This document shows, one piece after another, positions 1,712 to 51,314 of a stretch of DNA of 64,000 bases (position 1 is its first letter; each line of letters begins with the position of its first letter). Source of the DNA: Hyphomicrobium sp. Its GTDB lineage: Bacteria > Pseudomonadota > Alphaproteobacteria > Rhizobiales > Hyphomicrobiaceae. The stretch covers positions 1-64,000 of the forward strand of contig RXJH01000006.1 in the NCBI GenBank assembly GCA_003987725.1, read 5' to 3'. The notes beneath the pieces were generated by a model. That model did not search any database, was not told the DNA's origin, and saw only the letters and a list, made by a program, of their open reading frames with translations. Made by a program: the position numbers and the translations under genes.

Positions 1712-1894
1712 GACCACCCTGAGCATTAGTGGCGATCGGCTTTCTGCAACGAGTTGAAAGCGCCGTTCGACGTCGTTCGAGCTCATTCGGGCACGCACAA
1801 CAAATCGCAAGCAAGAAGGCAAGTGTTGCGTGGACAAGAAGATGAGGAGCTAACGCGGCTCAATCGATTTTGAGACGCAGATGGGGGATGTGAA

Positions 1895-3262
1895 ATGACC
1901 GGAAATACAAAGATAAAAATAAGGGGCCTGTCATCTCTGCGCGCAGCTGCCCTGGTCGCCTGCGCGAGCGTGTTTTCATATAGCGCGCAAGCAGCGGATC
2001 TCGGGGGCAATTGTTGCGCCGATCTCGAAGAGCGGATTGCCGAGCTCGAGGCGACGGCGGCGCACAAGGGCAATCGCAAAGTCTCTCTTACAATCTCCGG
2101 CTGGGTGACGGAACAGGTGATGGGGTGGAGCGATGGCGTAAGCACAAACGCCTTCGTCGGCACAAGTCTGAACGATCTGGGAAACCGGCTGCACTTCGAC
2201 GGTAGCGCAAAAATCAATAGCGAATGGTCTGCTGGCTACAGCTTGCGACTCGATGTTGTTGGAGCCAACGGGTTTATTCAGGATGCGCACCACCCCGACG
2301 GCGGTGAAGGCCCACCAGACACTCTGAATTCGTATTGGTGGATCAAGAGCGAGCGGTGGGGTCGTGTTTCGGTAGGTCGGCAGAGCCAAGCCACCGACGA
2401 CGTGTGGGTCGATGTTTCCGGTGCCGGCAGTATCTTCGCCGCCAACCTCGTTGACTTCGACGGCCAGAATTTCCAGCTCGTGCCCGAAGGGACCAAAACA
2501 CGAGCTAAAGCACGATGGGGCGATCTCGCCACCTGCTATACGACTGGTGTCGGAATTTTCGCTGACTGCGGAGGCGATCGCACGAACAATATCCGCTACG
2601 ACACGCCGACGCTCGGCGGCTTCATGTTTTCCACGTCCTATGGCGAAGCTTATTATTACGACTTCGCTCTGAGACACAATTACGATGGTCCCACCTGGAC
2701 AACCGCATTCGGCGTTGGATTCCAACGCAACCATGCCGCTCGAATCAATGTCATTACGCCCGATTACTTTGGCCAGGTCAGCTTTGCAGCGTTGCATAAA
2801 CCCACGGGGCTTTTCGGCAGTGTCTATTACGGCCACGAAAGTCCCGAGGGTGGCTACAAAGACACCGATGAGCTCTACCTGAAGGCCGGCATAAGAGCCA
2901 AACTCAATCCACTTGGCGCAACGGTCTTTTATGGCGAGTACGGCAGAGACAACGATCTTTTCTCCGGTCTGCTCGGCGGCGCCGTTTTCTCCGGCGTCAC
3001 CGATGTCTGCGATGGTTTTGCCGGAACTGGCGGCAAGATCGATAACGCATGCTCAACGTCCACTTCTGTCAAAGCTACGGGATCAACTTTCGATCGCTTC
3101 GGCTTTGGCGTTGTTCAAGAACTCGATGCGGCCTCGGCGGCATTTTGGCTGAAATACAAGAACTACGGAGCTGACGTCGACTTCGTTGCAGACGGCGTTC
3201 GCGGAAACGAAGACATGAGACACCTCCACATCTTCGCCCTCGGCGGAGCGGTGTTCTTCTGA
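1895..3262 (+). CDS. Outer-membrane porin (Porin_2 family), first of two paralogues
   Basis: This is a 455-residue outer-membrane channel of the alphaproteobacterial Porin_2 type. A signal peptide ends near ...SYSAQA. It is followed by a short segment with two adjacent cysteines (GGNCCADLEERIAELEA), which looks like a small coiled coil, then KGNRKVSLTISGWV, the usual first strand of the barrel, and a C-terminal aromatic residue (GGAVFF) as expected for an outer-membrane barrel. A strong GGGGGAT ribosome site precedes the ATG. The second porin at 26824 shares the whole N-terminal block. Placement behind a sigma-54 promoter and before lpdA suggests it admits the substrate of the neighbouring alcohol/acetoin pathway; the substrate itself is inferred. 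Confidence 0.9.
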   Translation: MTGNTKIKIRGLSSLRAAALVACASVFSYSAQAADLGGNCCADLEERIAELEATAAHKGNRKVSLTISGWVTEQVMGWSDGVSTNAFVGTSLNDLGNRLHFDGSAKINSEWSAGYSLRLDVVGANGFIQDAHHPDGGEGPPDTLNSYWWIKSERWGRVSVGRQSQATDDVWVDVSGAGSIFAANLVDFDGQNFQLVPEGTKTRAKARWGDLATCYTTGVGIFADCGGDRTNNIRYDTPTLGGFMFSTSYGEAYYYDFALRHNYDGPTWTTAFGVGFQRNHAARINVITPDYFGQVSFAALHKPTGLFGSVYYGHESPEGGYKDTDELYLKAGIRAKLNPLGATVFYGEYGRDNDLFSGLLGGAVFSGVTDVCDGFAGTGGKIDNACSTSTSVKATGSTFDRFGFGVVQELDAASAAFWLKYKNYGADVDFVADGVRGNEDMRHLHIFALGGAVFF

Positions 3263-3616
3263 GTCAGATCCAGCTGTTGTTGAAGATCAATTTTGCCGCG
3301 CGGATGTGATGGAAGTGAAGAATGTAGACGCAGTCCTTCCCAAGCGTTGCTTCTTCCTTCCTCACAGCTCCGCCAGGGGGGCCGGCGCGCGGTCGCGCCA
3401 GCTCCAAAGCTTCTTGGATCGGACACCGTACGGCCACGCGACCTCGTGCGACCTTACTGGGGGGTGCTCGGGGTAAACTCGAGGCGACGCGCTGCTGAAA
3501 CTCCCGTATTAGCGGCGCGTCGTCCCTTTTCCCCACAGACTCAGCCGTTGCTGGCGTGATCGCTCACACCGCATCGGACTTCACCTTCAATTGTGCGTTG
3601 GGAGCAGACACCCGAT
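3263..3616. other. Intergenic region between porin and lpdA
   Basis: No gene is supported here. A short GC-rich hairpin (arms GGCGCG/CGCGCC, about 3384-3399) is present without a following T-run, so it may be only a weak attenuator. I searched for a -24/-12 promoter in front of lpdA and found none, so lpdA may depend on read-through from the porin. Confidence 0.5.
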
Positions 3617-5074
3617 ATGGATTTCGATGTATTGATAATCGGCTCTGGTCCAGGGGGATATGTTGCGGCCATTAGGGCTACGCAGCTTGGTTTCAAAACA
3701 GCGATTGTCGAACGAGAATATTTGGGTGGTGTCTGCCTCAACTGGGGCTGCATTCCCTCGAAGGCGCTCTTGCGCTCGGCCGAGATCCTAAAACACAATC
3801 GCATGGCGCAAGAGTTCGGACTGCAGGCTGCTCCGGCGAACCCCGAATTGGCGCGAATTGTCGGGCGTTCGCGAGACGTGTCGAAGCGGCTCAATGCCGG
3901 CGTCGATTATCTCATGACGAAAAATAACATCCGCATTATTTGGGGCGAAGCTTCGATTGAACGGGCGCCTTCCGATACCCCCGGAGAAGTCATCGTCCGC
4001 AAACCAGACATCCCTCCACGCCAGCCTCAGATCCAGCCACCCAAGGGAACTCTCGGAGACGGCCGCTATACGGCCAAGCACATCATCATCGCGACGGGCG
4101 CACGCCCGAGGGTCATACCAGGCGTTGCACCAGACGGCGATCGTGTCTGGACCTATTTCGAAGCGATGGTTCCACGCGCGCTTCCGCGCTCGATCATCGT
4201 GATCGGATCCGGCGCGATCGGCGTCGAATTTGCGAGCTTTTACCGCGCGCTTGGCGTCGAAGTCACACTCGTCGAGGCACTCCCTCGAATATTGCCGATG
4301 GAGGATGCCGAGATCGCGCAGATCGCGCGGCGAAGCTTTCAAAAGGACGGAATCCGAATTCTCACCGGAACGAAAGTGCTCGAGGCCGCGCCGACGTCAC
4401 AAGACGGAATATCGCTCACCATCGAGTCCGCAGCGGGAGACCGCTCCGCCTTGCAGGCGGAACGCCTGATTTTGGCGGTCGGCGTTACTCCGAATACGGA
4501 AGGATTAAATCTCGAACGCCTCGGCGTAGAGCTGGAGCGCGGTTCCAAGCATATCAAAGTAGATGGCGCGGGACGCACCAGTGTTCCCGGCATTTATGCG
4601 ATAGGAGATGTTGCCGGCGCCCCAATGCTCGCACATAAGGCAGAACATCAGGGTGTCGCATGCGTCGAAGCGATAAAGGAAATGCCTGCCAGAAGCCTGG
4701 ATATCGCGAAAATTCCTTCTTGCATCTTCTGCAGTCCCCAGATCGCAAGCGTCGGACTGACTGAGGAAAAAGCAAAAGCCGCTGGCCACGACGTGCTTGT
4801 GGGGCGCTTTCCCTTCCGCGCCAACGGAAAAGCGATTGCCGTGGGAGAAACGGAGGGCCTCGTTAAAACAGTCTTTGACCGCTCTACGCAGAGCCTGCTG
4901 GGCGCGCAGCTTATCGGCAACGAGGTAACGGAACTAATAGGAACATTCGCGCTGGCGCTGGAGACGGGCGCTACACTCGACAGCTTTCGCCATACTGTAT
5001 TCCCGCACCCCACTTTGTCGGAGGCCATCTTCGAAAGCGCACTGTCCGCAGATATGGCTGCCCTCCACATATGA
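3617..5074 (+). CDS. lpdA: Dihydrolipoyl dehydrogenase (E3) of the acetoin dehydrogenase system
   Basis: This FAD enzyme re-oxidises the dihydrolipoyl arm of 2-oxoacid-type complexes with NAD+. The FAD-binding [10 protein letters not shown] is at the N-terminus, the redox pair is in [15 protein letters not shown], the NAD site is around [16 protein letters not shown], and the C-terminal catalytic dyad region reads [12 protein letters not shown]. About 25 extra residues around 130-155, rich in proline, make it slightly longer than usual. I chose the ATG at 3617 (protein beginning MDFDVLIIG) over an in-frame GTG at 3593, because it gives the normal family start and has GGAG upstream. It overlaps lipA by ATGA. 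Position next to lipA, thiSG and the aco genes marks it as the AcoL-type E3 rather than the E3 of pyruvate dehydrogenase. Confidence 0.93.
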
Positions 5075-49010: not shown

Positions 49011-51314
49011 GTGGGAAACGTGCAACCGGTATTGTCTGGAGTTTTCGCGAAGGCGCGTCGTCTGAAGCCAATCACATCTGCAGTTGCAGCATTCGGCGCC
49101 GCTCTCGCCGCAGCCGGAACTCTGGCGCCGGCGATCGCACATGCAGCGGAAGATGCGGAAGCGGCCCAGCGTCCGCCCCTCATCATGCAGATCTTCGTCA
49201 CGACGAAAAGCGACGACTGCTACGACAGCGGACAATTGACGGCAATCAAGCGCCTTACGACACTTGCCCAACACCGCATCAATCGCGATGGCGGCATCGC
49301 CGGCCGTAGAATTCTCGTAAACATTCTCGACGACCAACGCACACAGCAGAAAACGACTGAGAACTTGGCAGCCGCAATCGCCGATCCGCAGACGATTGCG
49401 ATGATCGGCCTCACGAATGCAACGCGCGCCAAGGCGGCCTTCGATGCGAACGGCAAAGAGCTGAAAGCGAGCGGCATCCCGTTCGTGTCAGACATCTCCG
49501 TGAATGACATCATAAAAGACTACCCCAACGTCTTCACGACGCGCGCCTCCGAGGACGAGGAACGATTGCCCGTAATCGCCGAGTTCGTGAAACAATCGCA
49601 CTTCGAGCGGCCGGCTTTCATCGGCATCCAATCCGCACTCGCCAGCACCAACCTCGGCGATGACCTGAACAAATACCTCGCCGGAGGCCTGACCGGCGAC
49701 CATCGCTTGCAACTCGTGGCCGACAAGCTCGATCCAGCCGAAGTCGCCGCCGCCATCGCCGATTTGAAATCCAAGAACGTTGGTATCGTCTTCCTCGCCG
49801 TCGGCGGCGACCGCTTGAAAGACGTCGTGAAACAGTTTCAGGATGCTGGCTTCACGCCACCGCTGTTCGTGTCAGGCCGCATCGATGCGCTGGCAAGCAA
49901 GGGGCGAGATGCCTATCCAAACGACGCCTATCAGCTCGCCTGGGACGGGTTGCCGGACGTCTACAGCGAGAGATTGCGCGAACTCACCTGGAGCACGGCG
50001 TCTCCCGAACAGTGGATCTTCGAGGGCAGGAAGAATGCGAGTGCTCCCGGCTGGAAGGACGGAACCTGCAAACCGCGGGACGAGGATATTCCGCTCAACG
50101 TCCTCGATAACGACAATATGCGTGCCCTGTCGGCCGGCACACAATACGCCGATATCGTGAGCCTGATTGCTGAGGCGGCGCGCTCAGCCGAGGTGACGGC
50201 CGCAATCCCCGACGTTCGCAAGCTGATCGTCGAACAGCTTGGCACTGCTTATGCGCCCGGACGTGGCATCTTCAAGGGACAGTTCGACAACTGGTCGTTC
50301 CAGCCCGCATCCCGCGCCGCAGCCCGCACGCCGATGATTCTCATGCTGCCGCGTGGCCGCGGTCAGACTCAACTCGCTCCGTTTCAATTCCTGCATTTGC
50401 GCGATCAGAGCCTGCAGCGGATCGATACGCTTTACGCCGACATCGACCTCATTCGCGCGGAACGCATCGACGACACCGACAAAACATTCTTCGCGGACTT
50501 CTATCTCTCGATGAACGACCGCGGTGGCGCATCGATCGAGCAGATCGAGTTCGCAAACGCCTATTTGGAGCCCGGCTCGAACGATCGTCAGATAACCGTG
50601 CGCGCGCTGCACGACGGCGGTCAAAGCGCCGCCTACCCGGATCACATGAAGATCTATCAGGTTACGGGCAAGTTCGTGTATTCGCCGGATCTCAGAAACT
50701 ATCCGTTCGATACGCAGCGCTTTTCGATCGATCTCCGTCCGAAGAGCGGCAACACCCCGTTCATCGTGCAACCGCCGCCGCTAAAAGTGCGCGACCATGT
50801 GGTGACCGTCGATGGCTGGGACCCGAAGGACCAATACGTCGGATACGACCAGGACTTCGTGCGCACGGTTGACGCGCAAACGCTGGAGCCAAGCGTCTTT
50901 CCTTTTTATAAGGCAAGCTTCGTCTGGCTGATGAAACGCGAAACGACGGATTACTTTCTTCGCGTCGTCGTGCCGTTGGGCTTCATCTTGATCATCGCGT
51001 ATCTGTCGATTTTCATCTCGACCCATCACTTCGAGGCGATCGTGACCATACAGGTGACGGCATTGCTGTCCGCCGTCGCGTTGTATCTCGCGCTTCCAAA
51101 GCTCGACGCCAACACCGAGACGCTTTCGGACCGGATGTTCCTATTCACCTATCTGATGCTGAGCGTGATCATCGCCATCACGATAGCGCGCGAGAACAAG
51201 AGGATCGAACCGGTTCGGTGGCTGAGAAGAGGACTCGTATTTCTTCACATCGTCGCCGTCCCGGGAGCGGTCGCGGCGATGGCCTATTACGTCTATCTGG
51301 CAAGCATCGCTTAG
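49011..51314 (+). CDS. Fusion of a type I periplasmic binding protein with a pentameric ligand-gated ion channel
   Basis: The 767-residue protein has a signal peptide (ending ...PAIAHA), then a leucine/amide-type periplasmic binding domain (about 55-450: TTLAQHRINRDGGIAGR, AMIGLTNATRAKAAFDANGK, ALASTNLGDDLNKYL). From about 465 it matches prokaryotic pro-loop receptors such as GLIC: beta-sandwich start RIDTLYADIDLIRAERIDD, TFFADFYLSMNDRG, the pro-loop SPDLRNYPFDTQRF (Pro565), then four helices from about 647: M1 LRVVVPLGFILIIAYLSIF, M2 HFEAIVTIQVTALLSAVALY, M3 DRMFLFTYLMLSVIIAITIA, and M4 near the end. It should form a pentameric inner-membrane channel facing the periplasm, gated by ligand at the channel or the extra domain. 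The start is GTG at 49011. It stands alone. Confidence 0.88.
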   Translation: MGNVQPVLSGVFAKARRLKPITSAVAAFGAALAAAGTLAPAIAHAAEDAEAAQRPPLIMQIFVTTKSDDCYDSGQLTAIKRLTTLAQHRINRDGGIAGRRILVNILDDQRTQQKTTENLAAAIADPQTIAMIGLTNATRAKAAFDANGKELKASGIPFVSDISVNDIIKDYPNVFTTRASEDEERLPVIAEFVKQSHFERPAFIGIQSALASTNLGDDLNKYLAGGLTGDHRLQLVADKLDPAEVAAAIADLKSKNVGIVFLAVGGDRLKDVVKQFQDAGFTPPLFVSGRIDALASKGRDAYPNDAYQLAWDGLPDVYSERLRELTWSTASPEQWIFEGRKNASAPGWKDGTCKPRDEDIPLNVLDNDNMRALSAGTQYADIVSLIAEAARSAEVTAAIPDVRKLIVEQLGTAYAPGRGIFKGQFDNWSFQPASRAAARTPMILMLPRGRGQTQLAPFQFLHLRDQSLQRIDTLYADIDLIRAERIDDTDKTFFADFYLSMNDRGGASIEQIEFANAYLEPGSNDRQITVRALHDGGQSAAYPDHMKIYQVTGKFVYSPDLRNYPFDTQRFSIDLRPKSGNTPFIVQPPPLKVRDHVVTVDGWDPKDQYVGYDQDFVRTVDAQTLEPSVFPFYKASFVWLMKRETTDYFLRVVVPLGFILIIAYLSIFISTHHFEAIVTIQVTALLSAVALYLALPKLDANTETLSDRMFLFTYLMLSVIIAITIARENKRIEPVRWLRRGLVFLHIVAVPGAVAAMAYYVYLASIA

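Follow-up and report, generated by a model that had tools for sequence, protein, structure and literature searches.

Does the Hyphomicrobium gene at 49011..51314 (+) really join a periplasmic binding protein (PBP) and an ion channel in one polypeptide, and what would such a protein do? The gene lies on a stretch of 64,000 nucleotides of Hyphomicrobium sp. DNA (contig RXJH01000006.1, positions 1 to 64,000; hereafter the window). A preliminary description, made from the letters alone, had read its product as a type I amino-acid/amide binding protein followed by a complete Pro-loop receptor, that is a pentameric ligand-gated ion channel (pLGIC). We found a single intact open frame of 767 codons with a GTG start, so that both halves do lie in one chain, and the same domain order recurs in relatives. 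Our reading, to which we give a probability of roughly 60%, is that the protein is an inner-membrane channel, homopentameric, ligand-gated and selective for cations, in which each subunit bears a PBP clamp.

The PBP domain spans residues 55-452 (49173..50366, +). Pfam Peripla_BP_6 matched residues 86-288 (E 2.1e-14, 54.4 bits against a cut-off of 31.7), as the preliminary description had anticipated, and it also matched all 23 members of our alignment (E up to 0.01). The fold is the two-lobed clamp that marks type I PBPs. The domain is preceded by a predicted signal peptide, recognised by eye (residues 1-45, cut after AHA; 49011..49145, +), which would place the PBP in the periplasm; the confidence of the AlphaFold2 model is low over residues 1-44. 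Within the PBP we infer a disulfide between Cys70 (49218..49220, +) and Cys353 (50067..50069, +) from the alignment of the 23 sequences. C70 is present in 22 of them, and the exception, L018, also lacks the loop of the second cysteine; C353 is in column in 20, and in two more (L016 and L017) it is shifted by a few columns. R139 is found in 23/23 sequences and S163 in 21/23.

The channel half is confirmed as a pLGIC by its sequence match to ELIC and GLIC and by its predicted fold. A phmmer search of PDB sequences matched residues 540-727 best to the ELIC-GLIC chimera 4yeu (E 1.1e-6); chains of ELIC and of GLIC followed from E ~1e-5. The AlphaFold2 model of the full chain (mean predicted local distance difference test score (pLDDT) 81.4, predicted template-modelling score (pTM) 0.76) contains a beta-sandwich and four helices, and a Foldseek search with this model returned GLIC at the top (5mzr, E 1.5e-15, template-modelling score by target 0.68). 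PDB sequence matches, model and Foldseek together define the extracellular beta-sandwich as residues 455-645 (50373..50945, +), so that the limits proposed earlier, 55-450 and 465-767, were nearly right except that the sandwich starts at about 455. It contains the Pro-loop SPDLRNYPFDTQ (residues 558-569; 50682..50717, +). The membrane part (residues 646-766) consists of M1 (646-668; 50946..51014, +), M2 (671-694; 51021..51092, +), M3 (705-728; 51123..51194, +) and M4 (736-766; 51216..51308, +), all placed from the model and M2 also from the alignment to GLIC. The protein thus has what identifies a Pro-loop receptor, namely homology to proven members, a beta-sandwich followed by four membrane helices, and the Pro-loop proline described as invariant in this family (PMC4795631). 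A Pfam AOX match (residues 701-761, E 0.012, below cut-off) was judged to be a chance match on membrane helices.

Conservation in this half is strict at several positions. P565, F566 and D567 of the Pro-loop, W603, R643 just before M1, P655 in M1, and E675, T683, L686 and A690 in M2 are identical in 23/23 sequences; we take P565, D567, R643 and P655 to have roles at the gating interface. In the alignment to GLIC, E675 stands over the glutamate of SYEANVTL, which in prime numbering presumably makes E675 -2', T683 6', L686 9' and A690 13'. Position 0' is I in 19 sequences and V in 4. Since glutamate occupies -2' in every sequence and 0' is I or V, the alignment predicts a cation-selective pore. 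The window protein thus shares with GLIC and ELIC the beta-sandwich, the Pro-loop, the pre-M1 arginine and a GLIC-like M2 with Glu at -2'. PDB chains of GLIC and ELIC have ~306-327 residues, and neither channel is known to carry a PBP.

One way to explain such a chain is that two genes were fused by an assembly error or a frame artefact. Nothing speaks in favour of this explanation, and the survey of other genomes leaves it a negligible probability. Matches were found in 21 of the 22 genomes of the genus, including all 18 with a completeness of 90% or more and a contamination of 5% or less, and in 19 of the 21 the match covers nearly the whole chain without internal stops (the two incomplete cases are a fragment at a contig end, G213, and a gene split between contigs, G210). 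Independent named records carry the same chain, the nearest being a Proteobacteria metagenome-assembled genome (95%) followed by Hyphomicrobium facile DSM 1565 (82%), with eight named loci retrieved; the relatives are Hyphomicrobium. With these separate records and the aligned relatives, the artefact was rejected. The ratio of nonsynonymous to synonymous substitution (dN/dS), computed with a Nei-Gojobori script against L001, L002, L029 and L033, is 0.04-0.10 across PBP, sandwich and membrane part (0.08-0.10 for the PBP alone), and by this measure all three are under purifying selection. Because matches run through the genus, the neighbouring genes are kept and selection is purifying, these comparisons indicate that the gene is real and maintained and no accident of assembly. 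In the order 18/199 genomes match at E <= 1e-5, 11 of them strongly (E <= 1e-97) and the own genome among these; in the phylum 27/398 match, three strongly, again including the own genome. A narrow channel profile (A4), built from 8 close rows so that distant members would escape it, found only the own genome among 385 of the class.

How would the two halves work together? We infer a homopentamer in which ligand-driven closing of the clamp opens the pore. A small periplasmic solute of the amino-acid, amide or carboxylate class would close the PBP clamp, closure would shift the five beta-sandwiches, and their movement would open the pore via the Pro-loop and M1-M2, so that a periplasmic solute would alter membrane potential or ion content. 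Several observations weigh against this reading. With the E-value limit at 10, where HMMER filters discard most matches above ~0.1, the Pfam models Neur_chan_LBD and Neur_chan_memb had no listed match in the window protein; the profile check of the second half proposed in the preliminary description therefore fails as worded, and it is the more sensitive tests given above that support the channel. NCBIfam LIC (TIGR00860), whose cut-off is 280.2 bits, scored only 15.9 (E 0.004). A model of the channel alone was poor (pLDDT 51.8, from 8 close rows) and was set aside. The Peripla_BP_6 match is confined to residues 86-288, and when the profile was compared with solved PBPs the matches stopped by about profile position 289, which makes the second PBP lobe divergent. 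Finally, mean pairwise identity (253 pairs) is 43.6% in the PBP, 56.8% in the sandwich, 59.9% in the membrane part and 81.9% in M2, and the greater variability of the PBP is compatible with relaxed constraint as well. Two further searches were uninformative for the channel half: Pfam PF02931 matched nothing across the own genome, controls included, and the VIA-align list was occupied by PBP folds.

The divergent second lobe would fit a PBP that no longer binds ligand and acts as a rigid or allosteric cap over a gate that answers pH, ions or tension, and DeCLIC provides a precedent for a modulatory N-terminal domain (PMC9897478). The low dN/dS of the PBP and the retention of R139 and S163 speak against such a cap, and we regard it as improbable. 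Somewhat less improbable, though still unlikely, is that the PBP merely concentrates or pre-senses the ligand while the agonist binds, as it does in other pLGICs, at a beta-sandwich site between subunits. This is the published proposal of Tasneem et al. (PMC549065). Plain pLGICs devoid of a PBP occur in the genus (L046 and L047) and in the order (L020, L021, L023, L024 and L025), so the sandwich can work alone. Against it, the PFSY of ELIC is aligned with PKSG in the window protein, which so lacks an aromatic residue that we take to be part of the ELIC agonist site, a weak argument from a single alignment.

For the clamped channel, the surroundings of the gene bear on whether it acts as a receptor or as part of an importer. 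The window gene is flanked by SDR, LysR and RND pump genes, as described before, and also by a gene for an HlyD-type adaptor. These four hold their position at 7/8 named loci; at the eighth, L006, a short contig, none of them was found. The SDR gene and the channel are set apart at L004, L005 and L008 by about 4 kb of additional sequence that the window lacks. The type I fold and the Peripla_BP_6 match are shared with the Leu/Ile/Val-type binding proteins of ABC importers; the window PBP differs in being fused to a channel, with no importer genes among the six neighbours tested. A receptor is more likely than an importer component because none of these six genes, when examined, matched an ABC permease. 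The family matches of the neighbours and the conserved locus bear out the earlier view that the gene is isolated from functionally related genes, and the role of stand-alone sensor suggested for it is plausible.

The preliminary description had implied that the pairing might be new. It is not, because Tasneem et al. in 2004 described channels of this family (ART-LGICs) that carry an amino-terminal PBP-I domain, one from Bradyrhizobium japonicum and one from Magnetospirillum magnetotacticum (PMC549065); the window gene adds a further case of a known kind. As far as their description goes, those proteins have the same domain order along a single chain (PBP-I, beta-sandwich, four membrane helices) and also come from alphaproteobacteria, and they differ in genus; the comparison is by description and not by sequence. 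The same authors propose homopentamers with a chemotactic role and expect cation as well as anion selectivity (PMC549065), and a 2022 review notes a resemblance to PBPs in many of the N-terminal domains found on prokaryotic pLGICs and reports the PBP fusion again (PMC9221113). Among the literature matches listed, from a search with most subscription journals outside its coverage, no title or abstract opening announced work on the function or structure of a PBP-fused pLGIC. A solved chain matching both halves was absent from the best 60 of 135 PDB matches, from all 28 of a second list and, for the relative L049, from the best 60 of 213. The kind is thus apparently uncharacterised. Two other receptors invite comparison: ionotropic glutamate receptors, whose pore is unrelated, are built of four subunits and contain a second ligand domain of PBP type, and DeCLIC is a pLGIC that responds to calcium. 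The likeness to DeCLIC drawn earlier holds for the additional N-terminal region, but the DeCLIC domains are described as two jelly-roll lobes where the window protein has a PBP, so that the parallel is loose (PMC9897478).

With PBP and channel profiles of our own we scanned the frames of another 50 loci (from L019 onwards; L026, L048, L050 and L056 were dropped for lack of a tblastn match). Both halves were found at E <= 1e-3 in 29 of the 50, 18 from the close family (some duplicates) and 11 far members that form a second, divergent clade (L022, L049, L051, L052, L058, L060, L061, L063, L064, L066 and L068). The remainder comprised 10 loci with channel only and 7 with PBP only, both including cut fragments, and 4 with a PBP whose sandwich match was weak and limited to its start. 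The Pfam PBP match of L049, one of the far members, covers 62-405, and among the best 60 of its 213 PDB matches those to the channel were GABA-A and glycine receptor chains, their GLIC chimeras and one GLIC-type chain. In M2, ten of ten far members (L022 aside, whose segment is P-P-R) lack the Glu: -2' is A, P or S, -1' is Ser and 0' is Arg. We rejected Arg at 0' as a sign of anion selectivity because plain pLGICs in the same alignment pair it with Glu at -2'; the missing glutamate is then the only hint, from which the far-clade proteins may be anion channels. A second, plain pLGIC without PBP is present in two genomes of the genus (L046 in G206 and L047 in G205). Separately, L070:820-2997 (-) encodes a single chain in which a Peripla_BP_6 binding protein comes after one of the DctP type.

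The four loci with a weak sandwich match yielded frames of 1037 aa (L073) and 1021 aa (L074), a frame truncated where its contig stops (L075) and two frames of a split version (L076). L073 and L074 match Pfam Peripla_BP_6 at one end and MS_channel_2nd, the MscS model, at the other (E ~5e-18). Chains of this order (PBP, pLGIC-type sandwich, MscS channel; 934-1143 aa) were collected from other Pseudomonadota at L073:3074-6184 (+), L074:1748-4810 (-), L128:574-3411 (-) and L107, L109-L123. Out of 23 frames, 18 were aligned (A3), leaving out L076, L108, L124, L125 and L126 as split or cut and keeping L123 although its end is cut; both Pfam models matched 18/18, and two (L122 and L123) carry a cNMP-binding domain in addition. 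At L076 a PBP-sandwich gene (1866-4013, -) directly precedes a gene for MscS with a cyclic-nucleotide-binding domain (423-1850, -), a split version. L128 is a single 946-aa frame with PBP and MscS domains in a genome that is one contig, which argues against a binning or assembly chimaera.

No Pfam model names the sandwich between the two ends. Aligned with HHalign, the MscS-type sandwich matched that of the far-clade pLGICs with a probability of 99.6 (176 columns; 98.3 over 124 columns without the intermediate L022), that of plain pLGICs with 97.5 (108 columns) and that of the Hyphomicrobium clade with 96.7 (107 columns); MscS pore against pLGIC membrane parts gave 0.2 and 0.4, and other mismatched pairs 0.1 to 3.5. 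Its hidden Markov model (HMM) matched the plain pLGICs L020 (1e-10), L023 (2.7e-8) and L046 (4.8e-8), with the best reversed decoy at 7.8. By these comparisons it is homologous to pLGIC sandwiches. On the other side, the sandwich HMM of the window clade matches MscS-type sandwiches weakly (best 5.7e-6; 15/23 at E > 0.01), an earlier three-sequence test against the whole window-clade channel gave a probability of 44, and without L022 the alignment spans about 110-130 columns, only the first part of the sandwich. The YPFD motif of the Pro-loop is not retained (NYGT in L073, for example). An MscS-type sandwich profile (A5) matched 42/398 genomes of the phylum, pLGICs included; it is blind to the window protein, since it had no match in the window's own genome.

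A sandwich tree was built from 48 rows, among them L128 and 15 of the 18 MscS types, with L069 left out. In it the 16 MscS-type rows share one branch (99/97) that adjoins the PBP-pLGICs L022 and L129 (93/91, not starred) and is nested in the PBP-pLGICs when rooted on plain pLGICs. One pore change therefore suffices for this tree, and a single pore swap would be its simplest reading. The PBP tree (42 rows) disagrees: it requires three changes for the MscS types and pairs L128 with L022 (95/95); long branches were flagged in the trees. Repeated exchange of the PBP part may be the cause, or the PBP tree may lack resolution.

In all, PBP and pLGIC-type sandwich probably form a sensor of two parts that is portable and has in the course of evolution been combined with a pentameric receptor pore and with the unrelated MscS pore, and the MscS-mounted proteins would be ligand-gated MscS-type channels. 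The best 60 of 121 PDB matches contained no chain matching both ends, and no title or abstract opening in the literature searched pointed to a PBP-sandwich-MscS fusion. This version, which rests on sequence profiles and trees, is the part that would surprise a specialist: if true, a pLGIC-type ligand domain operates on a pore that is presumably heptameric. The window gene, present in every good genome of its genus, is a tractable case for what such channels sense and a route to how a clamp opens a pentameric pore in fusions predicted in 2004; if the MscS-mounted version is confirmed, gating by one sensor would become directly comparable on two pore types.
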